Positions 17,958 through 63,913 of a stretch of 63,913 nucleotides of DNA are shown piece by piece. Positions within the stretch are counted from its first letter, which is position 1. The number at the start of each line of letters is the position of its first letter. The stretch is from Oscillospiraceae bacterium (GTDB lineage Bacteria; Bacillota; Clostridia; Oscillospirales; CAG-272): positions 1 through 63,913 of the forward strand of contig SVQT01000005.1 of the NCBI GenBank assembly GCA_015065215.1, given 5' to 3'. The notes under the pieces were generated by a model, which was not told where the DNA came from, ran no database searches, and saw nothing but the letters and a program-made list of their open reading frames with translations. Made by a program: the position numbers and the translations under genes.

Positions 17958-20825
17958 TTACGCCTTTTTTGTTTTCTTCTTCTTGATCACAACAGCGGTC
18001 GCTACCGCGCCGCCCACTACCGCCACACCGGCAACGATCACAATGATGATGACCGTGCTATTGCCGCCTTCATCGGGCGTTTCGGTGCTTGCGTCACGGT
18101 AGGACAGGGTGTAAACGCTGTTGAAATCATCGGTTTCCAGCGAAAGCGTTTTGCTTGCCGCATCGTAAACGGCATCCACTACGGCGGCCTTGCCGTCGCG
18201 CAGGGCAATGACTTGATAGCTGCGCTCACCCTCGGTAGTCAGCAGATCGGCGGGGATCTGTAAGGTGACTGTCAAAGCTCCGCTGGTTTTGCCAACCTGC
18301 TGCGCGGCGTTGTTGCCGAGCTTTTTGTAAAGCGAAACAGTAAGATAAGAACCAACGGTATGGCCGTTTAGCAAAGCGTTGACCTCTGCCTTTTCCGCGT
18401 CGGTCAGCTCGGCAACAGCACTTTCCAGATAGATCTTTACATTCTCGCCCGCGGCAACCTCGGTGCGCTCCGCCTCGGTCAAGATGGTCTCTTTCCATTG
18501 GGCGTTATGACCGGAAAGCGATACGCTTTCGTTTTTGTCTGTGGTGTTGGTTAGGTTGCCGGCAGGATTTTTGGTGTAAATAGCGGTCACCGTCATATCC
18601 TTGGTTATAGTGCGCAAATCGGCATCCCAGCTGGGCGAAATCTTGTCATATCCCGCTTTGGTGGGAATTTCGGGGATGGCGGTGATAGCTGAACCGTGTG
18701 TGACTGTTTTTCGCTCAACCTCTGTGCCGTCAATTACAAAAACAATGGTGTAGCTGTTCAAGGTATAAACGGCATTGACCGTTATATCAGCGGTGATGTT
18801 GGTAAAAACGGTGCGATCCCAATAGGGAGCGACCTTATCGTAGCCGGCTCTATGGGGAACTGCGGGAATGTCGGTGAGTGTGGCATTCCAGGAAAGCTCT
18901 TTGACGATATTGGCGGTACCGGTCGCCTTGAAGGTGATCTTCAGCGCCCTACCCGCGGCAACCTCCAGCAAAACGGGGGAGGATGCGCTGTGGTTGTTGT
19001 CGGGGGCAGGATAGCGTACATAATAAACGCCTGCCGCGAGAGCGGTCAGCTCGCCGCTGACCGTCTCGTAATGCTCGCCGTCAGCGCTGATCTCCATCAC
19101 GGCGTTAAGACCCGTGATGGTGCCGTCCGCTTTGCCGCGGATGCTCTCATTGGTAATGGTAAAGAGCGTTCTTTCAGGCGCCGCAATGGGCGCTTTTTCA
19201 ATGGTAAAAGAAAGGGTTGCGGTCAGCTCGCCTAGGGTGGCGGTGGCGGTTGCGGTGCCGGCGTTGACGTTGTTGTGGTAGGTTACAACGCTGAGCGGTT
19301 CGCCGCACCAGCCTTCACTGTAGTCAACCGTTACGCCGGTGATCGCATTGCCGTTGTAAACGGCGGTTTCGGGGGCACGTAGGGTAGCGGATTCGCTGTG
19401 CGCGGCGTTGGCCACTGTGTCAGCGGAGGCATCCGCGCTGTGTCCCGCGCCGCTACAGCTTTGCAGGATCGAAGCGCCGCTTGCGACATAGGCGTAAGTG
19501 TGAATTTCATCCGCCACTGCGGTGACGCTGGACATGATGCTTTGCATCGTGTTGTCCTGCGCTCCGAGCTTGGCACTCTGATAGGTATTCAGGAAAAGGA
19601 TCTCGGTCTGCTCGTGCTCCGGTATGGCACCGGTGCTCCGGTAGGTGGAAAGGCGGCTGCCAGCGTACAGTGCTTTGTCTGCGGTAGTGAGTCCCTCACT
19701 ATAGGAATAGGAGATATTGCACTGATCGCTGATGATCATGGTGATGTCGCCGTAGACCTGATAGGTGGAGGTCCATTTGCCGAGATTGCCGAAAACAATT
19801 TCGAGGATGTTGCCGTTTTGAAACTCATTATAGCACCCACCGTAAATGCGTCGGGTGATCTCGCCGCCAAGCACGCGCACGTTGACGGTGACCGGGTTTT
19901 CAGTGCTGCCAAAAGAGGCACTTTCGCTCGCGCCAAAGATCTGCTGGATTTTGCCGCCGGTTACGGTGACCTCGGCGCCAAGACCGGTATTGACGCTTTT
20001 GTTGGCACCGTTCAGGTTCATCAGGTCGCCGCCGGTGACCAAAGCGTTGGTGTAGCCACCGATCTTACTGCTGCCGCCGTGCGAGCCACCTCTCGCGTGG
20101 ATCATTTTGGCATTGTCTTGGATGACCAGATAGGTGCTACCGCTGATCTGATCGTCCCAACCGCCGCCGTAGGCGTTGTAGTTGGAATCGTGATTGGAGG
20201 TTTTCGCGTTGCTGTTCACGCTACCGCCCACCGTCAGATGGGTATCACCGTTTACCTTGCCGCCGTGACCGCCGCCAAAGAGGTAGGTATAGGTACCCGC
20301 AAGCACGGTCAGGTTGGTATCGCCGTTGACCGTTTCGCCGTGACTGCCGCCGAACAGGCAGACGTTTGTGTTCGCGTAGCTGGTAAAGGTCACGTCCGCC
20401 GCCACGGTAAAGGGATGGCCGTTGGCGTAGATGTTGGTGCGGGGAAAGCTACCATCGCTCTTGGCGGTGGCGTCCTCGTTGTTGTCCGCATTCCAGTCAA
20501 TGGTGGCGAATTTCAGCTCGATGGACGAAAAGATAACGCCGGTGTTTACCTTCAAATGAGCGTTATTGCCCCAGTTGGAGAAATCCAATATGCCACCGGT
20601 GATTGTAACTGTTTTGCTGGCGGTGGGCCACACAAAATCCGAGGGGATCACATAGGTGCCGTCGATCACCACCGTGCCGTTATCCGGAGCCTGCTCCAGC
20701 GCGGCGGCAAGCGAGGTGGTATCGGTCACATGGAGCTCGTCGGACGCGGCACCGATCCAGATCGAAAGCGAAAGGGTCAAAGCCAGTACGGCGCAAAGTG
20801 CGCAAACAAGTAGGAGCTTCTTCAT
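17958..20825 (-). CDS. Large secreted, membrane-anchored surface protein with beta-helix-like and InlB/MBG-type repeats
   Basis: A 955-aa protein from the ATG at 20825 (AAAGGA upstream); the track start 18 bases earlier is a TTG. An N-terminal signal peptide (MKKLLLVCALCAVLALTLSL) comes first. Residues about 35-430 are glycine-rich repeats such as GGGHGGKVNGDTHLTVGG and GGSHGGSSKIGGYTNALVTGG, as in right-handed parallel beta-helices. Next come Ig-like/MBG-type strands (YNGNAITGVTVDYS), two InlB-like (Listeria-Bacteroides) repeats around AGYDKVAPYWD and AGYDKISPSWD, and a C-terminal transmembrane helix followed by KKKKTKKA. No LPxTG motif is present, so anchoring is through the membrane helix. 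It probably functions in adhesion or polysaccharide binding. Confidence 0.85.
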   Translation of the reverse strand: MKKLLLVCALCAVLALTLSLSIWIGAASDELHVTDTTSLAAALEQAPDNGTVVIDGTYVIPSDFVWPTASKTVTITGGILDFSNWGNNAHLKVNTGVIFSSIELKFATIDWNADNNEDATAKSDGSFPRTNIYANGHPFTVAADVTFTSYANTNVCLFGGSHGETVNGDTNLTVLAGTYTYLFGGGHGGKVNGDTHLTVGGSVNSNAKTSNHDSNYNAYGGGWDDQISGSTYLVIQDNAKMIHARGGSHGGSSKIGGYTNALVTGGDLMNLNGANKSVNTGLGAEVTVTGGKIQQIFGASESASFGSTENPVTVNVRVLGGEITRRIYGGCYNEFQNGNILEIVFGNLGKWTSTYQVYGDITMIISDQCNISYSYSEGLTTADKALYAGSRLSTYRSTGAIPEHEQTEILFLNTYQSAKLGAQDNTMQSIMSSVTAVADEIHTYAYVASGASILQSCSGAGHSADASADTVANAAHSESATLRAPETAVYNGNAITGVTVDYSEGWCGEPLSVVTYHNNVNAGTATATATLGELTATLSFTIEKAPIAAPERTLFTITNESIRGKADGTITGLNAVMEISADGEHYETVSGELTALAAGVYYVRYPAPDNNHSASSPVLLEVAAGRALKITFKATGTANIVKELSWNATLTDIPAVPHRAGYDKVAPYWDRTVFTNITADITVNAVYTLNSYTIVFVIDGTEVERKTVTHGSAITAIPEIPTKAGYDKISPSWDADLRTITKDMTVTAIYTKNPAGNLTNTTDKNESVSLSGHNAQWKETILTEAERTEVAAGENVKIYLESAVAELTDAEKAEVNALLNGHTVGSYLTVSLYKKLGNNAAQQVGKTSGALTVTLQIPADLLTTEGERSYQVIALRDGKAAVVDAVYDAASKTLSLETDDFNSVYTLSYRDASTETPDEGGNSTVIIIVIVAGVAVVGGAVATAVVIKKKKTKKA

Positions 20826-20879: not shown

Positions 20880-20908
20880 ATCATATCACACAAAATGATA
20901 AAAAGCAA
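20880..20908 (-). promoter_or_regulatory. Promoter of the surface protein gene
   Basis: On the minus strand TTGCTT (20903-20908), 17 bases, TATGAT (20880-20885). It lies between the two minus-strand genes, so the surface protein is not simply read through from the AraC gene. Confidence 0.6.
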
Positions 20909-20915
20909 TAGGGGT

Positions 20916-21788
20916 TTAACGCTTTCCTGGTTCCCGCGCAAAAACGTAATCGCTCGGTCGCTTGCCGGTGACCTGAAAAAAGGATTTATAAAAGTTGGAG
21001 GAGCTGGAAAAGCCGCACCGCTCAGCGATCTCCAGCTTGGTAAGCTCTGTGGCTTTCAGCATTTCCACCGCTTTTTCCACCCGCTTGATGGTAATATATT
21101 CCCAAGGGGAGACGCCGTTGAATTTTTTGAATACCGCCGAAAAATAGGTGGGGGTCATGCAGGCCACCTCGGCGATCTCTTTCAGGGTCAGCCTGCCGTC
21201 CAGATGCTCATTGATATAATGGATCGCGCGGGAAAGGCTGCCCGTGGCGGCAGAGGGCGCGTTTACCGCCCGTTTGGTGTCGATATAATCGTATTGCCGC
21301 ATGATGTGGATCAACGCCGAAAAAAGCAGGTATTTGACCTGCACCGCGTAGCCGGTGGCCTTTTTCTCGATCTCACCCTCCAGAGAAAGCAAAATGCCGT
21401 TCAAGGAACGGTCATTCTGGGCGATGCGGTGCTGATAGTGCTTGTTGCGCGCGGTAAACAGGCTGAGCAGCTCCGCGTTTTCAGGATGCTCCCACAAAAT
21501 GCGTGGCTCAAACTGAAAATTAAGCAGATCCAGATCGCTTTGCACGCTGGTAATGCAGTGCGCCTCGTTGCTGCCGAACAAAAATACGTCACCGGCGGAA
21601 AATTCGTAGCGCTGCTCACCGACGGCATAAACGCCGTTGCCGGCCAAAAACAGCGAGAGCTCGCACTCGGTATGATGATGCTCCCGGTAGCCGCGGTCGC
21701 CGGGCTGTACACTGGAATGATACGCGCGGATGGTGACGTGGCCGTAATCATCGGAGATGTGTTTTTCGGAAAATCGCAGGGTACTCAC
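20916..21788 (-). CDS. AraC-family transcriptional regulator
   Basis: About 290 aa. The N-terminal cupin (HHHTECELSLFLAGNGVYAVGEQRY ... GDVFLFGSNEAH) and C-terminal paired helix-turn-helix (LTLKEIAEVACMTPTYFSAVFKKFNG; LEIAERCGFSSSSNFYKSFFQ) are clear. The start is uncertain: a GTG at 21788 behind GAAAGAG is used here, and an ATG at 21824 is the alternative. The longer 323-aa ORF begins upstream of the likely transcription start. It is divergent from the enolase/SDR/GH10/RraA operon, with overlapping promoters, and is probably its regulator. Confidence 0.85.
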   Translation of the reverse strand: MSTLRFSEKHISDDYGHVTIRAYHSSVQPGDRGYREHHHTECELSLFLAGNGVYAVGEQRYEFSAGDVFLFGSNEAHCITSVQSDLDLLNFQFEPRILWEHPENAELLSLFTARNKHYQHRIAQNDRSLNGILLSLEGEIEKKATGYAVQVKYLLFSALIHIMRQYDYIDTKRAVNAPSAATGSLSRAIHYINEHLDGRLTLKEIAEVACMTPTYFSAVFKKFNGVSPWEYITIKRVEKAVEMLKATELTKLEIAERCGFSSSSNFYKSFFQVTGKRPSDYVFAREPGKR

Positions 21789-21833
21789 CTCTTTCGTTTT
21801 CGTAAAATAGTGGAGAAAAAACATAAAATAGTG

Positions 21834-21903
21834 TTGGCATTGAAAATGTATCTGTGTTATACTGAACACAAAGAAATTATAGCACACCTCAGAAAAAAGT
21901 CAA
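21834..21903. promoter_or_regulatory. Overlapping divergent promoter region (AraC gene and sugar-acid operon)
   Basis: Plus strand: TTGGCA (21834-21839), 18 bases, TATACT (21858-21863), driving the operon at 21918. Minus strand: TTGACT (21898-21903), 16 bases, TATAAT (21876-21881), driving the AraC gene. The two elements lie within 70 bases, so one bound regulator could affect both. Confidence 0.65.
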
Positions 21904-21917
21904 GGAGAAAGCCGAAA

Positions 21918-23285
21918 ATGGATGAGATCAAAGCCAAAATTTCCGAGAACGTAAACATTTGCTCCAGCCCATCCGATTTAAAAATAACGGATATTCGTGT
22001 TGCCAATATTACCGGTGCCCCCAAGCACTGTCCGCTGATCAAGGTCTACACCAACCAGGGCCTCGTGGGCTACGGCGAAGTGCGCGATGCCTCCAGCGCC
22101 AGCTATGCGCTGATGCTGAAATCCAGACTCATCGGTGAAAATCCCTGTAATGTGGATAAGCTCTTCCGCCGTATTAAGCAGTTCGGTGGTCCCTCCCGTC
22201 AGGGCGGCGGTGTCAGCGGCTTGGAGATCGCCTTTTGGGATTTGGCAGGTAAGGCCTGGGGTGTGCCGCTTTGGCAGATGCTGGGCGGCAAATTCCGCGA
22301 TAAGGTGCGTGTTTACGGCGATACCGACGTGGATGGTAAGCACACTGGCACCGACATGGGCAAGGCGATCCAGAAGCGCATCGACATGGGCTTTTCTATT
22401 GTGAAGATGGATCTGGGCATCGAGCTGCTCTATGACGAGCCCGGCACCCTCAATGCGCCCCTTGGTATGCTGGAGGAGATGCAAAAGTATTCGATGAAGG
22501 CCATTCAGCACCAGAGCGGCTCCATTGATATGGATATGATGTTGGGTAAGAATTACGAGGTCTTTACCATTCCGCACTATGCCACCGGCATTCGCATCAC
22601 CGAAAAGGGAATGGATATGCTGGAGGATTATGTCAGGCAGGTTCGCGCGGTGGTGGGCTATGAGGTGCCCCTTGCCATTGACCATTTCGGACATGTGGCG
22701 ATCGAGGACTGTATCAAGTTCGCGCGTCGTCTTGCAAAATACAATATCGCTTGGTTAGAGGATATTCAGCCCTGGCACCTGACCGACCACTACGTGCGCA
22801 TTGCCGAGAGCTGCAATGTGCCGCTGGCCACCGGAGAGGATATTTACTTGGCTGAGAATTTCCGCCCCCTCATGGAAAAACACGGCGTTTCGCTGGTGCA
22901 TCCCGACCTGCTCACCATCGGCGGCGCGCTGGAGACCAAGAAGCTGGGCGATATGTGCGAGCAGTACGGCGTTGGCATGGCCATCCACATGGCCGAAAGC
23001 CCCATTGCCTGCATGGCGGCGATCCATACCGCCGCCGCGATACAGAATGTGATGGCGGTGGAGTTCCACTCGGTTGATATTCCTTGGTGGAATGACCTTG
23101 CTAACGGTATTGCCAACCCCCTCTTCAAAAACGGCTTTGTAGAGGTGCCCAACACCCCCGGTCTTGGTATCGAGTCCCTCAACGAGGAGCTGATCGCACA
23201 GCATATGCATCCCAAGTATCCCGGCAGGTGGGAGCCGACCACGGCGTGGGATAAGGAATGGGCCAACGACCGCGAGTGGAGTTGA
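21918..23285 (+). CDS. Enolase-superfamily sugar-acid dehydratase (mandelate racemase group)
   Basis: A 455-aa protein from the ATG at 21918 (AAGGAG upstream). The ORF-track protein of 796 aa includes 341 residues of non-coding upstream reading. The N-terminal capping domain (ITDIRVANITG ... GLVGYGEVRD) and barrel motifs GLEIAFWDLAGKAWG, VKMDLG, LAIDHFG, LEDIQP and ATGEDIY mark the mandelate racemase/muconate lactonising enzyme fold; the D, E and E ligands for magnesium are in place. Members typically dehydrate aldonic or uronic sugar acids to 2-keto-3-deoxy acids. As first gene of an operon with SDR, GH10 and RraA-like genes, an aldonate dehydratase is the best guess. Confidence 0.85.
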   Translation: MDEIKAKISENVNICSSPSDLKITDIRVANITGAPKHCPLIKVYTNQGLVGYGEVRDASSASYALMLKSRLIGENPCNVDKLFRRIKQFGGPSRQGGGVSGLEIAFWDLAGKAWGVPLWQMLGGKFRDKVRVYGDTDVDGKHTGTDMGKAIQKRIDMGFSIVKMDLGIELLYDEPGTLNAPLGMLEEMQKYSMKAIQHQSGSIDMDMMLGKNYEVFTIPHYATGIRITEKGMDMLEDYVRQVRAVVGYEVPLAIDHFGHVAIEDCIKFARRLAKYNIAWLEDIQPWHLTDHYVRIAESCNVPLATGEDIYLAENFRPLMEKHGVSLVHPDLLTIGGALETKKLGDMCEQYGVGMAIHMAESPIACMAAIHTAAAIQNVMAVEFHSVDIPWWNDLANGIANPLFKNGFVEVPNTPGLGIESLNEELIAQHMHPKYPGRWEPTTAWDKEWANDREWS

Positions 23286-51942: not shown

Positions 51943-54129
51943 ATGAAATATTCATTACCGGAAGTAAGAAAAGATAAAAAATTGAATTTTGAATGGTTTC
52001 CCACCAGGGCTCAGTGCTTTATCTACCGCAATTGGGGCACTGTAACTCCGTTAAAAATGTCGGAAATCCTCAAGTGTACCGAAAAAGAGGTTCTTTTGGC
52101 GGCATCGGATATGGGGCTTGACTTGTCGGTGCGCGTATCAGCCGATTGGGTTGACCGCGGATACATTACGCTAATCAGGAATAATTGGCACTTACTCGAC
52201 TATGACGGGCTTTGCGCTCTTTTGAATTGGGACAAAGAATATCTTGCGTTTATTTTGCAGGAAGATGATTTTTTGTCCGTTAAGCTTGGCGGCTTCAAGC
52301 CTTATACCGAAAATCCAAAACTGGAAGCGTTAAGTGAAGCGCAAAGGCGCCAGACGCAAAAAATCAAGTCGGTGACACAGGAGATATACGCGAGGGTAAA
52401 AGCTTTTACCGTGGCTCCCTTTGACTTTTTTGCAAACACGCATTGCGAAAGGAATTCTTGTGATGCTGAAAATCAGCGTTTTAAGCGTAAAATCATATAC
52501 TCCTATTGCGCGCTGTATGGCGATACCTTTGCTGACAGGCGACTGATCGATCTGTCCTTTCCCGAGAAAATGCTTGATGCTTACAGTAAGCTTGGGATCA
52601 CGGGAATATGGACGCAGGGGGTGTTGTCCAAGCTCGCGCCGTATCCCTTTGTCAAGGGTGAGGACAAGGGCTATAAAACCCGCCTTGACGGTATGAATTA
52701 TCTTGCCCAAAAGCTTGCCCGTCACGGCATGAAGCTGTATCTGTATTTCAACGAGCCGAGAGCTGTGTCAGAAGGGGTGTTGGCCCATCGCGACGACATC
52801 CGTGGACACGTTACGGGAAAAGGCCTTGCCTGTCTTTGCGTGCGCACCGAGCAGGTTCAGCAATATCTCAAGGAAGCAGTAGCTTACGTGGTACGCTCGG
52901 TTCCTGGGCTTGGAGGCATATACACCATCACCGCTTCGGAAAACCAGACCAACTGCCTCAGTAAGATCAAGCCGAAAAATACTCATATGCTCAATTGCCC
53001 GCATTGCAAGGGGCATACCCGCGCTGAAAATTTTGCTCTTGTCAACCAGCTTATTTGCGAGGGGGCGAAATCCGCTGATCCTAACATAGATTGTATCGCG
53101 TTTGGTTGGGAATGGGGCGACGTTGACACATCCTGCGAGGTTGTTGACCGACTCGATCGCGATATTTCGGTGATGAATGTCAGTGAAACAAGAAAAACCA
53201 AGCGGATCGGCGGGGTAGAGACCACCGTGGTGGACTATTCCATGTCGGTAGAAGGCCCCGGCGAGTTCTCGAAAACTCTTTGGAAATATGCCTTTGACCG
53301 TGGGCACAGCACACTCGCGAAAATTCAGGTGAACAATACGTGGGAGCTGTCTACTGTGCCGTATATTCCCGTGTTCGATAAGATATACAATCACATAAAG
53401 GGACTTGTCGAGACGGGGCATGTGGATGGGCTGATGCTGAGCTGGACGCTGGGGGGCTATCCCTCTCCCGTGCTTCAGATGGTGGATATGATGTCAGCTG
53501 AAGCTGACGCTTTGCGCACCCCCCGACAGGTATACGACAGGATTTTTAAGGGAGCGGATATACAGACACTTACACAAGTGTTCGGCATTTTCTCAGACGC
53601 GTTTGACGAATATCCGTTCCATGTGCAGTGCGCTTACAACGGCCCGCAGCAGAGCGCGCCCGCAAATCTTCTCTACAAGACACCAACCGATTTTTCTGCG
53701 ACAATGGTATGCAATCCTTACGATGACCTTAAGGGCTGGAGCGGCATTTTCCCCGTGGACGTATACGTTGGGCAGATTGAAAAGATGGTGAGCAAATGGC
53801 AGAAAGGCTTTGATTTGCTCTCCACCGTCAGTCTTGAGGCCAACCCTTACCTTGGCGAGCTTTACGATGTATCGCTGGCGTGTTTGATCCATTTTCGTTG
53901 CATGCTCAATCAGTGCAAATTTGTGCTGAAAAGAGAAAATATGGCGTCCTGCAAGGATATTATAGAAAATGAGGCAGAGCTTGCCTTTGCCGCGTTGGAA
54001 CTGATTGGAAGAAACGCCACCGTGGGCTATGAGTCCTCAAACCATTATTTCTATACCGCGGGGAACCTTATGGAAAAGATCATCAACTGTCAATATCTGC
54101 TTGACGCTTTAAGTGACAAGGATATATAA
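51943..54129 (+). CDS. Putative glycosidase-like protein of unassigned family
   Basis: A 728-aa protein with no signal peptide. The first about 120 residues (FIYRNWGTVTPLKMSEILKCTEKEV ... TLIRNNWHLLDYDGLCALLNWDKEYLAF) contain two copies of a helical motif, RNWxxxxxxxxxxLL, found in uncharacterised proteins beside sugar genes. The centre looks like a TIM barrel (LGITGIWTQGVLSKL; MKLYLYFNEPRA; ITASENQTNC, then CPHCK, then CIAFGWEWGD), reminiscent of GH20-like or DUF4838-like enzymes. Catalytic residues cannot be assigned with certainty. It is first in an operon with an oxidoreductase and two isomerases, so a cytoplasmic glycosidase is likely. Confidence 0.65.
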   Translation: MKYSLPEVRKDKKLNFEWFPTRAQCFIYRNWGTVTPLKMSEILKCTEKEVLLAASDMGLDLSVRVSADWVDRGYITLIRNNWHLLDYDGLCALLNWDKEYLAFILQEDDFLSVKLGGFKPYTENPKLEALSEAQRRQTQKIKSVTQEIYARVKAFTVAPFDFFANTHCERNSCDAENQRFKRKIIYSYCALYGDTFADRRLIDLSFPEKMLDAYSKLGITGIWTQGVLSKLAPYPFVKGEDKGYKTRLDGMNYLAQKLARHGMKLYLYFNEPRAVSEGVLAHRDDIRGHVTGKGLACLCVRTEQVQQYLKEAVAYVVRSVPGLGGIYTITASENQTNCLSKIKPKNTHMLNCPHCKGHTRAENFALVNQLICEGAKSADPNIDCIAFGWEWGDVDTSCEVVDRLDRDISVMNVSETRKTKRIGGVETTVVDYSMSVEGPGEFSKTLWKYAFDRGHSTLAKIQVNNTWELSTVPYIPVFDKIYNHIKGLVETGHVDGLMLSWTLGGYPSPVLQMVDMMSAEADALRTPRQVYDRIFKGADIQTLTQVFGIFSDAFDEYPFHVQCAYNGPQQSAPANLLYKTPTDFSATMVCNPYDDLKGWSGIFPVDVYVGQIEKMVSKWQKGFDLLSTVSLEANPYLGELYDVSLACLIHFRCMLNQCKFVLKRENMASCKDIIENEAELAFAALELIGRNATVGYESSNHYFYTAGNLMEKIINCQYLLDALSDKDI

Positions 54130-54147: not shown

Positions 54148-55167
54148 ATGAAGAACGTAAAGGTTGCCGTCATCGGATACGGCGGAATCGCAAGAGCGCA
54201 CAGCGCTGGGTATAATGCATTGAAAGCCGAGGGTGAACCGATAAGACTTGTTGCGGTATGTGACATTGACCCTGATCAGCTTGCCCGCAAGGTTGCCATC
54301 AACACGGGTGCGGATAAAAGTCGCCTCCCCGCAGACATTCGAACCTACACAAGCGTGGATGCTCTTATCGCAAACGAGGATTTTGATATGGCGGATATTT
54401 GTCTGCCCTCCTATTTGCACAGTGAATATGCGATCAAACTACTAAGAGCCGGGAAACACGTTTTGTCCGAGAAGCCGATGGCGCTGAATGTGCGGCAATG
54501 TGATGCCATGATAGAGGCGGCAAGGGAAGCGGGGCGCAAGCTCATGATCGGCCAGTGTCTACGCTTCAACGCGTGTTACCTGTATCTCAAGGATTGCGTT
54601 GACAGCGGCAGATATGGCAAGCTGCGGCATCTGTTTATGGATCGGCTCAGCGCCCAGCCTCGCTGGGGTTTTGAGCATTGGTTTGAGCAGACCGAGAAGA
54701 GCGGCGGATGCATCCTGGATATGCACATCCATGACGTTGATATGGTACGCTTTTTGCTTGGTGAGCCCGAGGCGGTAAGCACGGTTGCGCTTGATAGGGA
54801 CGTTCGTTGGCAGATCGAAAACACCCGTATGTATTATGAAGGGAAGCTGGTTGTGATCAACGCGTCGTGGGATGAGGCGGCAAGCTGTAAGTTCAAGGCA
54901 AGCTACCGCGCGAGATTTGAGCGGGCAACCGTTTGCTATGATGGCGGCACGGTCACGGTTTATCCCGATGAGGGGGAGCCTTTCGCCCCGGCGCTCACGC
55001 ATCAAAGCCATCATATTACGCAAGAGATTCGCGCTTTCCTGCATGAGCTGCTGGAGGGTAGGCTGGTGAGCGATGTCAATCCCCCCGAGAGCGCGAGAGA
55101 GTCGGTAAGGGTGATCGAAAAGCTCCGTGAAAGCGCGGCGCGCGGCGGAGCAATCATAAAGCTTTAA
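54148..55167 (+). CDS. Gfo/Idh/MocA family oxidoreductase
   Basis: A 339-aa protein: N-terminal Rossmann motif VAVIGYGGIARAHSAGY, LPSYLHSEYAIKLLRAGKHVLSEKPMALN with the conserved EKP lysine, and GGCILDMHIHDVDMVRF with the catalytic histidine region of the C-terminal domain. The family oxidises sugars, inositols or glycosides at one carbon with NAD(P). AGAGGA precedes the ATG, 18 bases after the glycosidase-like gene. Confidence 0.93.
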   Translation: MKNVKVAVIGYGGIARAHSAGYNALKAEGEPIRLVAVCDIDPDQLARKVAINTGADKSRLPADIRTYTSVDALIANEDFDMADICLPSYLHSEYAIKLLRAGKHVLSEKPMALNVRQCDAMIEAAREAGRKLMIGQCLRFNACYLYLKDCVDSGRYGKLRHLFMDRLSAQPRWGFEHWFEQTEKSGGCILDMHIHDVDMVRFLLGEPEAVSTVALDRDVRWQIENTRMYYEGKLVVINASWDEAASCKFKASYRARFERATVCYDGGTVTVYPDEGEPFAPALTHQSHHITQEIRAFLHELLEGRLVSDVNPPESARESVRVIEKLRESAARGGAIIKL

Positions 55168-55182
55168 GGAGTGAGGTTGAAA

Positions 55183-56019
55183 ATGCAGAACAGTATCGGC
55201 GTTCAAATCGTTTATAAAACAACAACAGACCTTGATAAAGAATTGAAAAAGGCGATCGACATGGAGCTGGAATCCTGCCAGCTTTGCATCTGGGACGAGG
55301 CTATATTTAGTGATGAGTATGCCGCCAAGGTAAACGAAGCTGTTCAAAATAACAGCTTCAAAATCACGTCGGTGTGGGCCGGCTGGGGGGGACCTCGCGA
55401 GTGGAATTTTACCTACGGCCCCTCAACCATCGGTCTTGTCCCCGCGGCGTACAGAGATGCCAGAGTGCAAGCCTTGAAAAAGGCTGCCGATTTTGCTGAA
55501 AAAATAGGCGTTGACAGGATCGTGACCCACGTGGGCTTCATTCCCGAAAATCCGGACAGCCCGGATTTTGCGGGAACCGTGGCGGCCCTGCGCCATCTTT
55601 GCAAATACTTAAAGGCCAAAAATCAATATTTCCTGTTTGAAACCGGGCAGGAAACGCCGATTACGCTGTTGCGCACCATACAAGCCATCGGATATGAGAA
55701 TGTCGGCATCAACTTTGATACTGCTAATCTTCTTCTGTACGGCAAGGCCAATCCCCTGGATGCGCTGGACGTTTTCGGGCAATACGTGATGGAAACGCAT
55801 ATCAAGGACGGCTTTTATCCCACCGATGGCATGTTACTTGGCAAAGAGGCGCCTGTCGGAGAGGGGCGGGCAAACATTCGCGCCATTGTAAAAAAGCTCG
55901 GTGAACTCGGCTATACGGGTACGCTTACCATTGAAAGAGAAATCTCGGGCGAGCAGCAGATCAAGGATATTATCATGGCCAGAGACCTGCTGCGTGAATG
56001 GATGCGGGAACTTGGCTGA
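55183..56019 (+). CDS. Sugar phosphate isomerase/epimerase (AP endonuclease 2 fold)
   Basis: A 278-aa TIM-barrel protein from the ATG at 55183 (AAGGAGTGAGG upstream). GVQIVYKTTTDLDKELKKAIDMELESCQL at the N-terminus, IVTHVGFIPEN, LFETGQETP, GINFDTANLLLYG and ETHIKDGF give the E/D/H/E metal ligands of the xylose isomerase-like fold. Partners of Gfo/Idh/MocA enzymes in this fold isomerise or dehydrate keto-sugars. Confidence 0.9.
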   Translation: MQNSIGVQIVYKTTTDLDKELKKAIDMELESCQLCIWDEAIFSDEYAAKVNEAVQNNSFKITSVWAGWGGPREWNFTYGPSTIGLVPAAYRDARVQALKKAADFAEKIGVDRIVTHVGFIPENPDSPDFAGTVAALRHLCKYLKAKNQYFLFETGQETPITLLRTIQAIGYENVGINFDTANLLLYGKANPLDALDVFGQYVMETHIKDGFYPTDGMLLGKEAPVGEGRANIRAIVKKLGELGYTGTLTIEREISGEQQIKDIIMARDLLREWMRELG

Positions 56020-56020
56020 T

Positions 56021-56860
56021 ATGAGATTGACAAATTACAACCAGTTTTACCATGACCGCAAGCAATTCGGTATCGAATACGCAGCGGCACATACGGTGTC
56101 GTTGGGCTTTGACGCGGTTGAATATCTCGTGCTTTCTTTTACGGAACATGCCATAGATGCCCAAAAAGAGAAAGAAATATTGGATCGCCACGGTCTTTGC
56201 GTGACGTGTTATTCGGTGTATGTACAGCTGTTCACGCCTGACCGGGCTGACGTGGAAAGGCAAATGCTCCGGCAGGTTGAAACGGCGGCGGCGCTTGGCG
56301 CGAAGTATTTTCATCACACGCTTTTCCCGCCCTATAACAGGGAGCGGATCGCAAACACGTATGACGAGGTGTATGACGGCATTGTTGACATGGCCGAGCG
56401 TATCGCGAAAGCGTGTAACAAGCATGGGATCGTTTGCCTCTACGAGCCGCAGGGCGCCTATTTCAACGGCATCATCGGTCTTAAGACGTTTCTGAGCGAA
56501 ATGAAAAAAAGAAATTGTGAGGTCGGCGTTTGCGGTGACTTTGGAAATTCTGTATTCGTGGATGTTGACCCGCGTGACGTGTTCAAAGCATTCGCGGGGG
56601 AGATCCGCCACGTGCACGTAAAGGATTACCTTGTAACCGACACCGATATACCCGAAAAAAAGGCGCATCGTAGCATTGGCGGCAGACTGATTTACGAGTC
56701 GGAGCTGGGTGAGGGCTCGGTGGACTTTGCCTACGGCTTTCGGGAGCTGAAGCGGGCCGGCTATGACGGCGCGATCAGCTTTGAGATACAAAAAAGCGAT
56801 GGAGAATTCGCAAAAGCAATTTCGTATATCAAGGATGTTATGAAAAAGGCCGGTTTTTGA
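56021..56860 (+). CDS. Sugar phosphate isomerase/epimerase (AP endonuclease 2 fold), second copy
   Basis: A 279-aa TIM-barrel protein whose ATG (56021) follows the upstream stop codon after one base; the longer ORF-track version reads backward into the previous gene in another frame. YFHHTLFPPYNRERI, CLYEPQGAY, VGVCGDFGNSVFVDVDP, RHVHVKDYLV and ISFEIQKSDGEF carry the metal-ligand pattern. It is only distantly similar to the gene before it, so two different isomerase or epimerase steps are likely. Confidence 0.9.
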   Translation: MRLTNYNQFYHDRKQFGIEYAAAHTVSLGFDAVEYLVLSFTEHAIDAQKEKEILDRHGLCVTCYSVYVQLFTPDRADVERQMLRQVETAAALGAKYFHHTLFPPYNRERIANTYDEVYDGIVDMAERIAKACNKHGIVCLYEPQGAYFNGIIGLKTFLSEMKKRNCEVGVCGDFGNSVFVDVDPRDVFKAFAGEIRHVHVKDYLVTDTDIPEKKAHRSIGGRLIYESELGEGSVDFAYGFRELKRAGYDGAISFEIQKSDGEFAKAISYIKDVMKKAGF

Positions 56861-57223: not shown

Positions 57224-59206
57224 TTACTTGAGTTGCCCCTCAATATGCGTGAGCCCATGGTCAAAGAAGCTCCAATCCTTGTGCCAACGCAGGTTTTCGA
57301 GTCGGAAGGCGCAGGGCCAGGCAGGGAGCCACTGAGAAGGACTGAAGGGCTTTGTGGTATGACGTCCCCAACGGGTATGGAACACAGCCTCATCCTGCGC
57401 CCCCGCGGGGCGCAATCTCTTATTCAGGAAAAGCGTACCGTCTGAGATGCCTTGGCTGGTGTTACACCAAAAGGCGATGGCGCGTTCTTTCCACTGGCTG
57501 TAGCCTGTAATCTCATATAGCTTGAGGAAGGAAAGCACGTCGCGCAGCGCATATTGGTCAAGCGCCTGATGCGGGGTGGAAACACTGGTGGAGCCAAAGG
57601 TGTCATATCCAAGCTTGGCGATCAGACAATCCTCGGGATATTTCACGGTAAAGTGCATCATCCAAGTGCAAAGATACCATGCGATCTTCTCGGCCTTTGC
57701 CACATAATGCTTTTCTCCCGTTATCTCGTAAAGTGCCAAGGCGTCACGAAGCAACGGAGAGGACGATTCCTTGTCAATGCTATAGGTATCAAGCGCGCCC
57801 GCTGTCGTAAAGCCCTCACGCTCCAGCTCATCGTAGTAAAAATCAAAGGCACGTATCGCGGCGTCAAGGTATTTTTTATCATTGGATTTCTGATATGCGG
57901 TCAATATGGGCAGGATCAAAAAACATCCTATTGTTCCTTTTTTAGCAAGAACGTTTCCGTCATCATCCCAGGATTTGGCAAAGCAACCGTTTTCATCCTG
58001 ACTCTCAAGCGCAAAATCACAAGTATCAAAAGCCGCTTTCAGGTATGCGGGCTTGTCGATTCCGATCTCACGGAGCAGATCATAGGCCTCAAAATAGCAA
58101 TCCGCGCCGGTGCCCAGATTACAGGCATCGTGTGTAATGGCGATCTTGCCCGCGGCGTTACGCCGCTGGGGCTTGCCTACCTTATTGAGCAGGGATTCAA
58201 ACTGATCCTCTCCCCATTCCCAACGGTCAAGGTCGGCAGCGGTCATCGTCTCCAGCGGTAGCTCACGGAAGCGGTGATATTCCATCTTGGCGGAAAGGAA
58301 CTTACCTCTTGCCTCTCCGTATTTCAGCCAGGCGTCATGTGCCTCTAAGGCAAGCTCGAGATTGTCATTGTCGCCATGTTTGAGGTAATCGTAAAGAAAG
58401 GCATTTGCCATAGAAGCGCTCTGGCCCACCCAGCCCAGCTCATAGCGGTGCTCCTTTTTCTTGTATGCGTTCACGTCTGGATGCCACTGCGAGCCGGTCA
58501 CAAAGCCCGCAAAGCCGTCGGGCTCACGCATAAAGAGCGAGCGTGTATAGGCGATGGAAAGGCGATAGAGCTCCTCCGCTGTTCTGGGCGCCTTGATGGC
58601 GTGACCGTAATAGCGCCACGCAAAATCAAGCAATCCCTTATAGCGATGGCGAGTGCCGTCCGAGGGGATGGCCAAAACAATCCCCTCGAAATGGTCACGG
58701 GGCTCCATGGTTCCCTGAAAGGCCTCTCCCCAAAAGTGACGTTGGAGCGTTTTTGGCTTTTCTTCCTCGGGGAATATCAGAACATGCTTTTCGCCCTCGT
58801 CGACCCGGTAGAGAGAACAAGCGGAATTGCTGTTGGGCTCGGCCATCAGTGCCACGCTGATGTCGGCATTTTCGCTATACGTACACGCCGGAATGGTGAC
58901 GCGGTGAGAGGCAAAGCTCCAAGGCGTTCCGTCTTCCGCTCGGTCACCCACATACTCGGGGATGTTACCCCACCCATTTCCGTTGTAGCTGACGGCAGGG
59001 ATCATGGTAAAGTCGGGGGCGCCAAGGAGGATCATCTCCATGCGCATATGATCGGTAGGCGCGTCGGTGTGGCGATGCCACCTCCAGGCACCGTCCTCGA
59101 TCGGCTCAAAGGTATCGGTGGCCCCTGCCATTGCAGGGATGCAAACGAGGCTCTTGCCGTTCACGGCAATTAGATGACCGCTCTCTGTTTTGATGATTTC
59201 AGGCAT
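57224..59206 (-). CDS. Putative (alpha/alpha)-barrel glycosidase-like protein, copy 1 of a tandem pair
   Basis: A 660-aa protein without signal peptide or membrane segment. The first about 190 residues are beta-rich (MAGATDTFEPIEDGAWRWHRHTD ... TYSENADISVALMAEPNSN); the rest is helical with repeated W/Y/D patterns (HDACNLGTGADCYFEAYDLLRE; GALDTYSIDKESSSPLLRDALALYE; HFTVKYPEDCLIAKLGYDTFGSTSVSTPHQALDQYA) as in six-hairpin glycosidases or lyases. I cannot name a family or catalytic residues. It is about three quarters or more identical by eye to copy 2, from which it is separated by two bases. Confidence 0.72.
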   Translation of the reverse strand: MPEIIKTESGHLIAVNGKSLVCIPAMAGATDTFEPIEDGAWRWHRHTDAPTDHMRMEMILLGAPDFTMIPAVSYNGNGWGNIPEYVGDRAEDGTPWSFASHRVTIPACTYSENADISVALMAEPNSNSACSLYRVDEGEKHVLIFPEEEKPKTLQRHFWGEAFQGTMEPRDHFEGIVLAIPSDGTRHRYKGLLDFAWRYYGHAIKAPRTAEELYRLSIAYTRSLFMREPDGFAGFVTGSQWHPDVNAYKKKEHRYELGWVGQSASMANAFLYDYLKHGDNDNLELALEAHDAWLKYGEARGKFLSAKMEYHRFRELPLETMTAADLDRWEWGEDQFESLLNKVGKPQRRNAAGKIAITHDACNLGTGADCYFEAYDLLREIGIDKPAYLKAAFDTCDFALESQDENGCFAKSWDDDGNVLAKKGTIGCFLILPILTAYQKSNDKKYLDAAIRAFDFYYDELEREGFTTAGALDTYSIDKESSSPLLRDALALYEITGEKHYVAKAEKIAWYLCTWMMHFTVKYPEDCLIAKLGYDTFGSTSVSTPHQALDQYALRDVLSFLKLYEITGYSQWKERAIAFWCNTSQGISDGTLFLNKRLRPAGAQDEAVFHTRWGRHTTKPFSPSQWLPAWPCAFRLENLRWHKDWSFFDHGLTHIEGQLK

Positions 59207-59208
59207 GA

Positions 59209-61233
59209 TTATTGCTCCTGTTTTTCAGAATTTGAGGTCGACGCAGTATGCTTGATCGCGTTTTCGATGTGCGCAAGCCCCTGGTCAAAAAGGTTCCAGT
59301 CCTTCTGCCAACGAAGCGTCTCCAGGCGGAAGCCGCAGGGCCAAGCAGGGAGCCACTGGGAGATGCTGAAGGGCTTGCCCGTATGACGCGCCCAACGGGT
59401 GTGGAACACCGCCTCGTCCTGTGCGCCTGCGGGACGCAAACGATTGTTGATGAACAGCGTACCGTCCGAAATGCCTTGGCTGGTATTGCACCAGAAGGCG
59501 ATGGCGCGCTCCTTCCACTGAATATATCCCGTCAGCTCGTAGAGCTTAAGGAATGAGATGACGTCTCGCAACGCGTACTGATCCAGCGCCTGGTGAGGAG
59601 TCGAAACACTGGTGGAGCCGAAGGTATCGTAGCCGAGCTGCGTGATCAGGCAATCCTCGGGGTAATTCACGGTAAAATGCATCATCCAGGTGCACAGATA
59701 CCAGCCGATCTTTTCTGCTTTTGTGACATACGCGCGATCCCCCGTGATCTCGTAAAGCGCCAACGCGATGCGGAGCAGGGGAGAGGAGGATTCCTTATCG
59801 ATGCTGTAGGTGTCAAGGGCACCTGCGGTGGTAAAGCCCTCGCGCTCCAGCTCTTCATAGTAGAAATCAAAGGCGCGAACGGCGGAATTCAAATACTTTT
59901 CATTCTTGGTATGCTGATACGCCGCGATCATGGGAAGCGCGAGGAAGCAGCCTACCGTTCCTTTTTTTGCGATGACGTTGCCATCGTTATCCCAGGATTT
60001 GGCAAAGCAGCCCTCCTGGTCCTGATGCTTCAATGCGAAATCGCAGGTGTCCAGCGCCGCCTTGAGATATTCGGGCTTGTCGATACCAATCTCACGCGTC
60101 AGATCGTAAGCCTCGAAATAGCCGTGCGCGCCGGTACCTACGTTGCAGGCATCGTGCTTTAAGACGGGCTTACCGTTGGCATCGCGCTTTTTGGGCTTGC
60201 CCACTTGATTGAGCAGAGATTCATACTGATCCTCGCCCCATTCCCAGCGGTCAAGATCAGCGGCGGTCATATTTTCTACGCGCAGCGTAGAGACCCAAGG
60301 GCGGTATTCCATTCTGCAGCAAAGAAAATCGCCGTTTGCTTGCGTGTATTTGAGCCAGGCATCGTTGGCCTCAAGTGCCATATCAAGGCTGGCCTTGTCG
60401 CCGCTTTTAATGTAATCGTGGAGGAATGCGTTGGCCATCGACACATTTTGTCCCACCCAGCCAAGGCCGTATTGATGCTCGTATTTTTTATAGCCGTTCA
60501 GCGAGGGGTGCCATTGCGAGCCGGTGGTAAAGCCCGCAAAGCCGTCGCGCTCCTTCATATACAGCGAGCGGGCGTAGGCAAGGGAAAGTCGATGAAGCTC
60601 GGCAGCACTTCTGGCAGGCTTGATGGCGTGGCCGTAATAGCGCCAGGCAAAGTCCAAAAGATACTTGTAGCGGTGGCGGCTGCCATCCGAGGGAGTGGCA
60701 AGGATGATGCCCTCAAAATCCTGCGCGGGCTCCATGGTGCCCTGGAAGGGATCCCCCCAGAAGTGGCGCTGCAACGTTCTCGGTTTCTCCTCCTCGGGGA
60801 AGATCAGCACGTGCTTTTCACCCTCCTCCACGCGGTAGAGAGAACAAGCGGAATTGCTGTTGGGCTCGGCCATCAGCGCCACACTGATGGCGGCATTTTC
60901 GCTATACGTACACGAAGGGATCGTCACACGGTGGGAGGCCCAGCTCCAAGGAGTGCCGTCCTCATCGCGATCACCCACGTATTCCGGCATCGTTCCCCAT
61001 CCGTTGCCGTTATAGCTGATCGCTGGGACCATCGTAAAGGTGGGTGCCCCAAGCAAGATCATTTCCATACGCATATGATCGGTAGGCGCGTCGGTGTGGC
61101 GATGCCATTTCCAGGCACCGTCCTCGATCGGCTCAAAGGTATCGGTGGCCCCCGCCATTGTGGGCAGCAGCGCGTAAGGCTTTTTGTCAATGGTAATGAC
61201 GTGTCCCGTTCCCTGCTTTAAGATCTCGATCAT
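59209..61233 (-). CDS. Putative (alpha/alpha)-barrel glycosidase-like protein, copy 2 of a tandem pair
   Basis: A 674-aa protein, aligned without gaps to copy 1 over nearly its whole length, plus a hydrophilic 13-residue C-terminal tail (HTASTSNSEKQEQ). Long stretches such as GALDTYSIDKESSSPLLR and FGSTSVSTPHQALDQYALRDV are identical in both, while the first about 20 residues and the segment near residue 300 differ most. AAAAGGAGA precedes the ATG, 18 bases after the Fe-S protein gene. The duplication is recent enough to keep near-identical DNA blocks. Confidence 0.72.
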   Translation of the reverse strand: MIEILKQGTGHVITIDKKPYALLPTMAGATDTFEPIEDGAWKWHRHTDAPTDHMRMEMILLGAPTFTMVPAISYNGNGWGTMPEYVGDRDEDGTPWSWASHRVTIPSCTYSENAAISVALMAEPNSNSACSLYRVEEGEKHVLIFPEEEKPRTLQRHFWGDPFQGTMEPAQDFEGIILATPSDGSRHRYKYLLDFAWRYYGHAIKPARSAAELHRLSLAYARSLYMKERDGFAGFTTGSQWHPSLNGYKKYEHQYGLGWVGQNVSMANAFLHDYIKSGDKASLDMALEANDAWLKYTQANGDFLCCRMEYRPWVSTLRVENMTAADLDRWEWGEDQYESLLNQVGKPKKRDANGKPVLKHDACNVGTGAHGYFEAYDLTREIGIDKPEYLKAALDTCDFALKHQDQEGCFAKSWDNDGNVIAKKGTVGCFLALPMIAAYQHTKNEKYLNSAVRAFDFYYEELEREGFTTAGALDTYSIDKESSSPLLRIALALYEITGDRAYVTKAEKIGWYLCTWMMHFTVNYPEDCLITQLGYDTFGSTSVSTPHQALDQYALRDVISFLKLYELTGYIQWKERAIAFWCNTSQGISDGTLFINNRLRPAGAQDEAVFHTRWARHTGKPFSISQWLPAWPCGFRLETLRWQKDWNLFDQGLAHIENAIKHTASTSNSEKQEQ

Positions 61234-61251: not shown

Positions 61252-62193
61252 TTATTTCTTTTCAAAATCGGCGATGTCAAAGCTCCAGGGCTCGCGCTTG
61301 CGGAAGGGGGTCTTGAAGCTCTTTGTCAGGGCGCCCTTTTTTTCAAGATGGATGTAGCAATTTATATCACAAGCTCTGCCGCAAATAGAGCACTGATACG
61401 CGTGCTGAGCGGGAGGATAAAAATATATATTGCGAAGGATTTTTCTCGCTGTTTCGGGAGTAACCTTTGCCTCTCCGCTGATAATAGAGACTCTGTCCTC
61501 AAAGTCTTTAAACGCATCGGGGGGCATAAAAGGGTTTTTCAAGCCATTCGCGCCATTATAGTAAACAGCGCACTGCCAAGCGTCAACCGTGCCGTCCTCG
61601 GCAATCGCCCCTCCGGGGCAGCCCTTTACACATTCACCGCACTTGTCGCAAAGATGGGGCTCCTTGATAGGTGTTCCTTCTATCTCGGCGTCGGTCAATA
61701 CAAAGCAGGTGCGTACAAAGGGGCCAAATTCATCTGTGAGAAGAGCGCCGTGAAAGCCGATCTCGCCAAGGCCGCAAAGCACCGCGGCTCTTGAAAAATC
61801 CATTTGCGTTTCCTGGGGACGGTTTCTGTAGATCGCGTCAAACGCAACCTCTGGATTGGTTGAATTTTCCTCGGCCATGATCTGCTGATGACGGCGCTGG
61901 GGAAGGGCAGAGTAACCCTGCTCCTCCAGCATCATCGAAAGACGAACCGAAACCATCGGCATGACCGTCTCTTCCATATTCTCAACGCCCATTGTTGTAT
62001 ACTGATAGTAGGTGCTTCCTTCCTCAATTCCGCGATAGGCGCCGCGAAGAACACGAAAGCCAAGGCCGATGACTGTTTTTGCCTCGGGCATCAGCTTGTG
62101 AACCGCGGAATCCTTGGGGAAACGGTTGATTGGCGCAAAGCCGATCAGATCCGCTCCGCATTTTTTGCACAGCTCAATGATCCGTTCTTTCAT
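61252..62193 (-). CDS. QueG-like double-cluster Fe-S protein, copy C
   Basis: A 313-aa cytoplasmic protein. The N-terminal half (IELCKKCGADLIGFAPINRF ... YYQYTTMGVENMEETVMPMVSVRLSMMLEEQGY) resembles the nitroreductase-like core shared by epoxyqueuosine reductase and reductive dehalogenases. The C-terminal half has CDKCGECVKGCPGGAI, then DAWQCAVYYNGANGLKNPF, then CSICGRACDINCYIHLEKKG: two [4Fe-4S] sites. True QueG is about 360-380 aa, so it is shorter. Its start overlaps copy B's stop by four bases. Function unknown; cobalamin binding is possible but not shown. Confidence 0.78.
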   Translation of the reverse strand: MKERIIELCKKCGADLIGFAPINRFPKDSAVHKLMPEAKTVIGLGFRVLRGAYRGIEEGSTYYQYTTMGVENMEETVMPMVSVRLSMMLEEQGYSALPQRRHQQIMAEENSTNPEVAFDAIYRNRPQETQMDFSRAAVLCGLGEIGFHGALLTDEFGPFVRTCFVLTDAEIEGTPIKEPHLCDKCGECVKGCPGGAIAEDGTVDAWQCAVYYNGANGLKNPFMPPDAFKDFEDRVSIISGEAKVTPETARKILRNIYFYPPAQHAYQCSICGRACDINCYIHLEKKGALTKSFKTPFRKREPWSFDIADFEKK

Positions 62194-63089
62194 TTCTTCT
62201 TACCTCCAATCAAATGATTGTAGCAGGCGTAATCGCAAGCTCTTCCGCAAAGGCAAGCCGAATAGCCCCATTGTGTATCGGGCAAAAAGTTCATCTTGGG
62301 ATATAGCGCGCGCGCGCTGCTCGCGTCAAAGCGCATTTCTCCGTTGATAATGGCCTCGCGGTTGGGGTCGCCCTTCAGAAAATCCTCGGTCATAAAGGGG
62401 TTGGACCTGTGAGCACCCTTGTAGTAAACGGAGCATTGCCAGGTGTTCAGTCCGTTTTCATCTATCGCTTTACCCGGGCAAGCCTTCATACATTCACCGC
62501 AACCGTCACAAACAGGGGTATCCAACGGCTCATCTACCTCAAGGGGGGCATCGGTAATGATAAAGCAATAACGGATATACGGACCGTATTTCGGGCTGAG
62601 GATCTTGCCGCTAAGACCTCTCTCGCCGATGCCGCAGGCCTTGGCGGCCTTACCGAAATCAATGATGACGTCGGGTACGGGCTTTCCGGGGGCTACGGCC
62701 GTTGCGTGCACCAGCTCATAGGTATCCATGACCTCGGGATTGGTCGTTTTATCGCCTTTCGCGCGAAGATTGGGCACGGATTTTTGCAGACAGGCGTCAT
62801 AGCCCTCATCCTCGATCATGCCGCCGATCTTCAAGAGAAAGATCTCAGCCAGCTCCTCGTCGGGATATTTTACACCCAAGGTGGTATATGTATAATATTG
62901 AACGTCCCTGTTCATGGTGTTGAAAAGGGTTTTAGGTACGACAAAGCCAAATCCTATGATGCATTTCGCGCCCGGCAGGATCTGTCTTGGGTCTCTTTGC
63001 GCGTCAGGCTCATCGTAAACCCTGCCTATTCCGCAAACGCTGGCGCCAAGCTCTTTTGCCTTTTGCTTTATCATTTCGCTTGTAAGCAT
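62190..63089 (-). CDS. QueG-like double-cluster Fe-S protein, copy B
   Basis: A 299-aa protein with the same plan as copy C: ELGASVCGIGRVYDEPDA, QYYTYTTLGVKYPDEELAEIFLLKIGGMIEDEGYDA, CGIGERGLSGKILSPKYGPYIR, CDGCGECMKACPGKAI, NTWQCSVYYKGAHRSNPF and CLCGRACDYACYNHL. The W-x-C-x-x-x-Y-x-x-A...NPF motif between the clusters is shared by all three copies. AAAGGAGAA precedes the ATG, which directly follows the cupin stop codon. Confidence 0.78.
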   Translation of the reverse strand: MLTSEMIKQKAKELGASVCGIGRVYDEPDAQRDPRQILPGAKCIIGFGFVVPKTLFNTMNRDVQYYTYTTLGVKYPDEELAEIFLLKIGGMIEDEGYDACLQKSVPNLRAKGDKTTNPEVMDTYELVHATAVAPGKPVPDVIIDFGKAAKACGIGERGLSGKILSPKYGPYIRYCFIITDAPLEVDEPLDTPVCDGCGECMKACPGKAIDENGLNTWQCSVYYKGAHRSNPFMTEDFLKGDPNREAIINGEMRFDASSARALYPKMNFLPDTQWGYSACLCGRACDYACYNHLIGGKKK

Positions 63090-63449
63090 TTATTTGTTCT
63101 CCTTTTCGTCGATGTATTTCTTCTCGGTATTTTCGCGTGAAGTGTTTCGGTTTTCAACCACCAGTACATTGGCGTCGTTGCTGACTACAATATGGTGCCA
63201 CACTCCCACAGGAACGGTATACACGCATCCGCGTGCCATCTCCATGGCTTCCTTGTCGGTGTAAAGTGTAGCTTTTCCGGATAGGAGAACGAATACCTCG
63301 TCAGTGAGTAAATGCCGCTCCAATTCAGCCAAGCGAGAAAAACGCTCGCTGTAACCGAGCAGGCCGACCTTCCATTCCCCGTATTCGGTCATGACCTGAA
63401 AGCCTTCGGCTTTGCGGGTGCTGACTTCTATCATCTGTCGAGCTTCCAT
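63090..63449 (-). CDS. Small cupin protein
   Basis: A 119-aa single cupin domain: LERHLLTDEVFVLLSGKATLYTD (motif 1 with H and E) and GCVYTVPVGVWHHIVVS (motif 2 with H). The family covers isomerases, dioxygenases and sugar-binding proteins. Its ATG lies inside the end of the upstream Fe-S gene, and a second ATG at 63434 is possible. It is embedded between two Fe-S protein genes and so is probably part of the same pathway, possibly a sugar-acid epimerase or isomerase. Confidence 0.8.
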   Translation of the reverse strand: MEARQMIEVSTRKAEGFQVMTEYGEWKVGLLGYSERFSRLAELERHLLTDEVFVLLSGKATLYTDKEAMEMARGCVYTVPVGVWHHIVVSNDANVLVVENRNTSRENTEKKYIDEKENK

Positions 63450-63913
63450 GGCTTTCCCTTTCTGAGCGGCTCCTTAAAGCGAGCTTCCATGCAACCGCCC
63501 TTCTTTTCAAGCATAGATACACAGCCTCTGATACAGCCGCCGCACTTTGCCATGTTGTATCCGACCCAGCTCGGGAAATATTTCTGAAGCGCTCCGTAAA
63601 CCTTCATGATCTCCTTTTCGTCCGCGACGTCGGTTTTTCCCTCCAGAAGATTAAGGTCGCCGTTTTCGTTGGCGTCAAAAACCTCCTTGGGCACAAAAGG
63701 ATTATAATATCTTCCGGCGTGGGTATAGAAAGCGTAACAACGCCACATATCAATGTCGCCCCACTCGCAGATCTTGCCGTCCAGGTCCACGCGTACCGTC
63801 TTGCCGGAATTGATGGCGGGAATGCAGCCGCCGGGGCACTCGCGCACGCAAGCGCCGCATTTGCGGCAAAGGGGCTCGCCGTGATACATCTCGTCGTATT
63901 CCAGCTCGGCAGA
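63431..63913 (-). CDS. QueG-like double-cluster Fe-S protein, copy A (5' end outside the window)
   Basis: The C-terminal about 160 residues of a third family member; the frame stays open to the window edge (SAELEYDE before the track's first Met), so the ORF-track ATG is internal. CRKCGACVRECPGGCIPAI, DMWRCYAFYTHAGRYYNPF, and CGGCIRGCVSMLEKKGG correspond to the three blocks of copies B and C. The last block has one cysteine fewer than copy C. It overlaps the cupin gene by 19 bases. Confidence 0.78.
   Translation of the reverse strand, partial: SAELEYDEMYHGEPLCRKCGACVRECPGGCIPAINSGKTVRVDLDGKICEWGDIDMWRCYAFYTHAGRYYNPFVPKEVFDANENGDLNLLEGKTDVADEKEIMKVYGALQKYFPSWVGYNMAKCGGCIRGCVSMLEKKGGCMEARFKEPLRKGKPWKLDR

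Follow-up and report, generated by a model that had tools for sequence, protein, structure and literature searches.

A conserved cassette of QueG-like proteins and a U32-superfamily protein, with recurrent sugar-type neighbours, in gut bacteria

The stretch of DNA analysed here (the window) is the whole of a 63,913-nucleotide contig, C33, from the genome of an Oscillospiraceae bacterium that is 84.6% complete and comprises 2.14 Mb in 85 contigs. At one end of the window lie three related genes, here called Q1, Q2 and Q3, together with a cupin gene and two copies of a barrel-type enzyme (FAM3). The features concerned are as follows:

63431..63913, minus strand: Q1, QueG/dehalogenase-like, a 160-aa C-terminal piece open at the contig end
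63090..63449, minus strand: cupin, 119 aa (PF07883, E=2e-7), with conserved H46, E51 and H85
62190..63089, minus strand: Q2, 299 aa, QueG/dehalogenase-like two-cluster protein, with a 4-bp overlap with Q3
61252..62193, minus strand: Q3, 313 aa, QueG/dehalogenase-like two-cluster protein (model pLDDT 90.3)
59209..61233, minus strand: FAM3 copy 1, (alpha/alpha)6-barrel glycosidase/epimerase-like, in the same operon, a variable partner
57224..59206, minus strand: FAM3 copy 2, 78% identical to copy 1
54148..56860, plus strand: a Gfo/Idh/MocA dehydrogenase and two xylose-isomerase-like TIM barrels, a separate converging group

Q3, Q2, the cupin gene and Q1 abut or overlap by a few bases on the minus strand (61252-63913), and the ORF coordinates confirm the overlapping set with a cupin that an earlier note on this DNA had described; the run continues with gaps of 19 bp between Q3 and FAM3 copy 1 and 3 bp between the two FAM3 copies. 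The Q proteins, read in the same note as three diverged copies with common Fe-S sites, are true paralogues, since the likeness of Q3 to Q2 (38% identity, E=1e-59) and to the C-terminal piece of Q1 (34% identity, E=4e-15) is not due to chance, and the cysteine sites and W-x-C-x-x-x-Y/F-Y ... NPF block noticed there are conserved across orthologues. The description of all three proteins as short failed for Q1, complete orthologues of which have about 359 aa, the set being truncated in the window. The converging group at 54148-56860 is possibly a pathway neighbour of the cassette and lies outside its conserved core. Elsewhere in the window, two long ORFs have no Pfam match (17958-20825, 955 aa, and 51943-54129, 728 aa, the latter having no PDB match either), and a 796-aa protein (20895-23285) has an enolase-superfamily (MR_MLE) C-terminal half and no Pfam match over its first ~360 residues.

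The operon appears to continue on a second contig of the same genome, C81, whose end matches the reverse-complemented window at 126 of the 129 bp that they share, with mismatches at the outermost bases. C81 carries the N-terminal part of a Q1 gene (L091:10189-10899; 237 codons as called), and upstream of it are F1, which encodes a U32-superfamily protein, and a divergent AraC-type regulator. The two contigs can be joined on the strength of the 129-bp overlap and of the same order in relatives, rather than of reads, and the full order would then be AraC / F1-Q1-cupin-Q2-Q3-FAM3-FAM3. Extension to the right, which had been proposed as a check, has therefore supplied the N-terminal part of Q1, F1 and the AraC regulator; the operon recognised in the earlier note is real, but its most constant partner, F1, lies off the window and so was missed. 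A second, minimal system consisting of one Q, F1 and AraC is found on C44 of this genome, which also encodes other B12-binding proteins.

Q1, Q2 and Q3 are most likely old, specialised paralogues within the class III cobalamin superfamily, which includes QueG and the reductive dehalogenases, a kinship already suspected and now supported by NCBIfam, profile and fold matches. The NCBIfam matches are to these two groups and are partial and far below cut-off, with Q3 and Q2 scoring 40-43 bits against TIGR00276 (QueG; cut-off 200 bits) and 39 and 57 bits, respectively, against TIGR02486 (reductive dehalogenase; cut-off 160 bits). When a Q-family profile is compared with PDB sequences, the best match is to the dehalogenase 8q4h (5e-20), with QueG 5d08 at 7e-19, and the matches include short collinear stretches in the N-terminal domain. 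For the AlphaFold model of the window's Q3 (mean pLDDT 90.3), the 46 fold matches with E<=0.001 consist entirely of QueG and dehalogenase structures, with modest TM-scores of 0.41-0.52, and are followed by the B12 proteins CblC and CblD. Fold prediction and profile together give the class III domain order, in which a cobalamin-type nitroreductase domain is followed by a two-cluster ferredoxin domain. In QueG, eight cysteines have been assigned to two [4Fe-4S] clusters (PMC4646009), and the eight for two such clusters in Q are conserved at a level of at least 97% in Q1, Q2 and Q3 orthologues. Binding of a cobamide, for which there is no sequence signature, is putative; no cobalamin riboswitch was found near the operon in the window or in eight related loci.

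The DYH motif of the QueG active site (PMC4646009) occurs in none of the 156 sequences of Q1, Q2, Q3 and further Q proteins, and Q has no C-terminal HEAT-repeat domain, the proteins ending soon after the last Cys motif. The region corresponding to the catalytic tyrosine of the known enzymes (QueG Tyr101 / PceA Tyr246) lies outside the profile-search alignment, and no tyrosine common to all Q types is seen there. A separate queG, which the earlier note had advised looking for, is present on contig C75; it is short, has the DYH motif and the double Fe-S site, and scores 117 bits, below the 200-bit TIGR00276 cut-off, in a genome where queA is present and queH absent. This gene rules out a Q copy as the sole genomic queG. 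All Q proteins do match TIGR00276 weakly, as a reading in which one Q is the queG of the genome and the others are decaying copies would have it, but this is hardly credible in view of the C75 gene, the queA and queH findings, and the conservation of the Q copies as orthologues under purifying selection.

The partner F1, of about 340 aa, is probably a diverged TIM-barrel protein of the U32 superfamily with an Fe-S cluster on four invariant cysteines. Direct sequence searches for U32 membership gave weak matches or nothing, hhalign of F1 with UbiU, UbiV and two canonical U32 proteins of the genome gave no significant match, and F1 reaches up to 20.8 bits against PF01136 (Peptidase_U32), where the Pfam cut-off is 22.4. 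Membership is instead drawn from the fold and from bridging relatives: the best PDB fold match of the F1 model (pLDDT 89.8) is the U32 protein Mk0906 (E=1.7e-9), with the next more than four orders behind (4e-5), and three relatives matched by the F1 profile (L156, L158 and L159) exceed the PF01136 cut-off with up to 56.7 bits. Relatives of this kind also touch the TrhP and UbiU models. C79, C188, C192 and C221 are invariant across 56 sequences and would suit one [4Fe-4S] cluster, while a further four-Cys tail is present in 16 of 30 F1 sequences among those listed. This arrangement differs from the CX6CX15CX3/4C pattern typical of U32 oxidases, from which UbiV also departs (PMC6747719).

A scan of 196 genomes of the family gave a Q match in 22 and an F1 match in 16, all 16 of which also have Q, and among named genomes 29 loci were detected, most of them in Clostridia and some in Verrucomicrobiota; the record names of the Clostridia refer to the guts of goat, roe deer, sheep, water deer, water buffalo and rabbit. 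The core AraC / F1-Q1-(cupin)-Q2-Q3 is constant across both groups, with many of the genomes coming from herbivore guts. F1 stands in the same gene run at 41 of 49 Q3 loci (a few of the 49 being one contig present in two collections, e.g. L057 and L139), contig ends truncate many of the others, and the cupin is found between Q1 and Q2 at 15 of the 49. Because the Q3 loci had been found partly through Q, sampling was also carried out through F1 alone, which was detected in 29 of 391 genomes of the class and 72 of 289 genomes of the Verrucomicrobiota phylum. When regions seeded by F1 genes of at least 330 bits were fetched from the two phyla, a Q gene lay within 1 kb on the same strand in 36 of 39, one of the three exceptions (L154) being at a contig end. 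The triplicated set, proposed earlier as a unit, does recur in many genomes.

Three architectures are seen, namely type A (F1, Q1, Q2 and Q3), type B (one Q and F1) and type C (two Q and no F1); the type C loci (L093:7423-9455, L165, L166 and L167), one of them in a genome of the same genus, have an adjacent Q pair and a divergent AraC. In a tree, Q1, Q2 and Q3 each form one fully supported clade, and sequences from Verrucomicrobiota fall inside each, which places the triplication before the spread between phyla. With dN/dS of about 0.01-0.05 where computable, and synonymous sites near-saturated, each of Q1, Q2 and Q3 represents an ancient group of orthologues that is subject to strong purifying selection; Q1 is the most conserved of the Q paralogues and is more conserved than F1. 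Tandem F1-like arrays with no Q nearby are found in Verrucomicrobiota at L192:6316-12223 (five genes) and L193:6200-9579 (three genes). At L145:4783-5709, a radical SAM/SPASM gene lies between F1 and Q1, its nearest model being a tungsten-cofactor maturase, below cut-off. In a plasmid collection, only distant relatives of the queG and SCP2 types were found, one of which, a 447-aa protein of a Priestia megaterium plasmid (L212:6890-8233), matches the QueG model and is annotated with an SCP2 sterol-binding domain. The SCP2 protein UbiT is a partner of the U32 proteins UbiU and UbiV.

Since tRNA modifiers are known among QueG-like as well as U32 proteins, Q and F1 could be a pair that modifies RNA. 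QueG and TrhP act on tRNA position 34 (PMC4646009, PMC6599085), and F1 relatives touch the TrhP model. However, Q has neither the HEAT domain nor the DYH motif, the cassette is patchily distributed (F1 in 16 of 196 family genomes), and AraC regulators and sugar genes lie nearby, which together make RNA modification very improbable.

The gene directly behind Q3 is FAM5 in 10 of the 49 loci, FAM3 in 6 loci and that of a solute-binding-type lipoprotein in 3 loci, and nine loci have Gfo/Idh/MocA oxidoreductases of one cluster at a distance of one to three genes. A FAM5 profile matches alpha-N-acetylgalactosaminidase (1e-31), while FAM3 matches GH76 mannanases (1e-7) and is akin to (alpha/alpha)6 barrels including GH88 and cellobiose epimerase. 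Other sugar-type genes near the cassette are those for tagaturonate reductase and altronate dehydratase (L065), for a sugar kinase and KDPG aldolase (L069), and for an arabinose-isomerase-like protein and an FGGY kinase (L155); at several loci, no sugar gene lies beside the cassette and the neighbours are unrelated. FAM3 barrels as an obligate part are ruled out by their presence directly behind Q3 in only 6 of 49 loci. Thus the tie to sugar enzymes drawn in the earlier note stands in so far as sugar-type neighbours recur, but not for these barrels in particular, which are one of several interchangeable sugar-type partners. The occurrence of unrelated glycosidase-like folds in one slot suggests that the cassette handles a chemical group common to several glycosides.

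These neighbours also bear on whether the cassette could handle cobamides or another cofactor, by CblC-like dealkylation, remodelling or maturation, rather than serve a sugar pathway. The fold likeness to CblC and CblD, which comes after that to QueG and dehalogenases, would fit such a role, as would the maturase-like radical SAM/SPASM gene between F1 and Q1 at one locus. It is nevertheless improbable, as the AraC-type regulators near the cassette carry a cupin domain, glycosidase-like proteins and sugar dehydrogenases are among the neighbours, none of the neighbours scanned was recognised as a cobamide gene, and the distribution is patchy.

We regard it as an even chance that the cassette is a module for anaerobic redox chemistry linked to sugars, with cobalamin-type reductases and the U32 protein F1 working together. 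In its favour are the linkage of F1 with Q over two phyla, the constant core order, the superfamily kinship, the conserved cysteines, the purifying selection, the recurrent sugar-type neighbours and the other B12-binding proteins of the genome, whereas the modest TM-scores, the missing DYH motif, the lack of a cobalamin riboswitch at the loci scanned and the several loci with no adjacent sugar gene weigh against it. In such a module, electrons would probably travel through the two [4Fe-4S] clusters of each Q to a cobamide in the base-off state, which would be reduced to Co(I), and Q1-Q3 with F1 would most likely perform a reduction or remove a group in a step that needs no O2. Dehydroxylation, deoxygenation and ether demethylation are candidate reactions, and either Q or F1 may be the catalyst, sequence being unable to tell between them in either respect. 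The substrate would be a modified sugar, sugar acid or glycoside that the partner enzymes process intracellularly. Roles may be divided among the three Q paralogues, with Q1, as the most conserved, being the best candidate for the common core. The more specific proposal, in which a sugar C-O bond is cleaved or moved by the joint action of cobamide-dependent class III reductases and a U32 Fe-S protein, is put forward tentatively.

Alternatively, Q may have lost cobalamin and serve as two-cluster electron carriers or scaffolds, with F1 as the catalyst on a sugar-type substrate, possibly as a hydroxylase or oxidative demethylase that, in the manner of UbiU/V and TrhP, does not depend on O2. F1 is nearly always found with Q and belongs to a superfamily whose oxidases hydroxylate without O2 (PMC11574389), some of its relatives stand in arrays without Q, and the known QueG active-site residues are missing in Q. 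Against this, F1 is missing beside the Q pairs of type C loci, conservation is stronger in Q1 than in F1, and Q finds its best fold matches among cobamide enzymes or B12 chaperones, so that this alternative is considered rather unlikely.

When the structure of QueG was described in 2015, the third class of cobalamin enzymes comprised only dehalogenases and QueG, and it was noted that further class III families might exist and be hard to recognise by sequence (PMC4646009). Few U32 proteins have been characterised, and the question of their chemistry is still open (PMC11574389). A conserved QueG-like/U32 gene pair, common in herbivore-gut bacteria and often beside sugar genes, brings both questions within reach of tests on a few defined proteins. 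The cassette suggests that sugar breakdown includes a chemical step, so far undescribed, that needs no oxygen; the joint action of cobamide-dependent reductases and a U32 protein, if true, would mean that gut bacteria of two phyla degrade carbohydrates by a B12-dependent route. No description of the pairing of Q with F1 was found in the open-access literature, subscription journals lying outside the search; the parts come from known superfamilies, while the module and its context appear to be undescribed.

Among known systems, QueG (TIGR00276; PDB 5d08, 5d6s) resembles Q in its N-terminal cobalamin-type domain, GLG/GIG loop and eight cysteines, whereas Q lacks DYH and HEAT, scores far below the family cut-off and sits in a catabolic-type operon, and Q3 has about 37 extra residues separating its fifth Cys from the sixth, in a stretch that contains the NPF block. 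Reductive dehalogenases (TIGR02486; PDB 4uqu, 4ras, 8q4h) have the same fold class and Fe-S domain, but Q is shorter, with no N-terminal twin-arginine signal seen and no membrane anchor gene recognised. The U32 oxidases UbiU/UbiV and TrhP (PF01136; PDB 5d88) are like F1 in the TIM-barrel fold and in its four invariant cysteines; F1 differs in falling below the Pfam cut-off, in its pairing with QueG-like proteins and in a cysteine spacing not described for UbiU or UbiV (PMC6747719). Finally, the partners resemble glycosidases of the GH129/GH101 type (FAM5) and GH76/GH88 type (FAM3) by profile matches, as opposed to which FAM5 and FAM3 stand directly behind a redox cassette and swap between loci.
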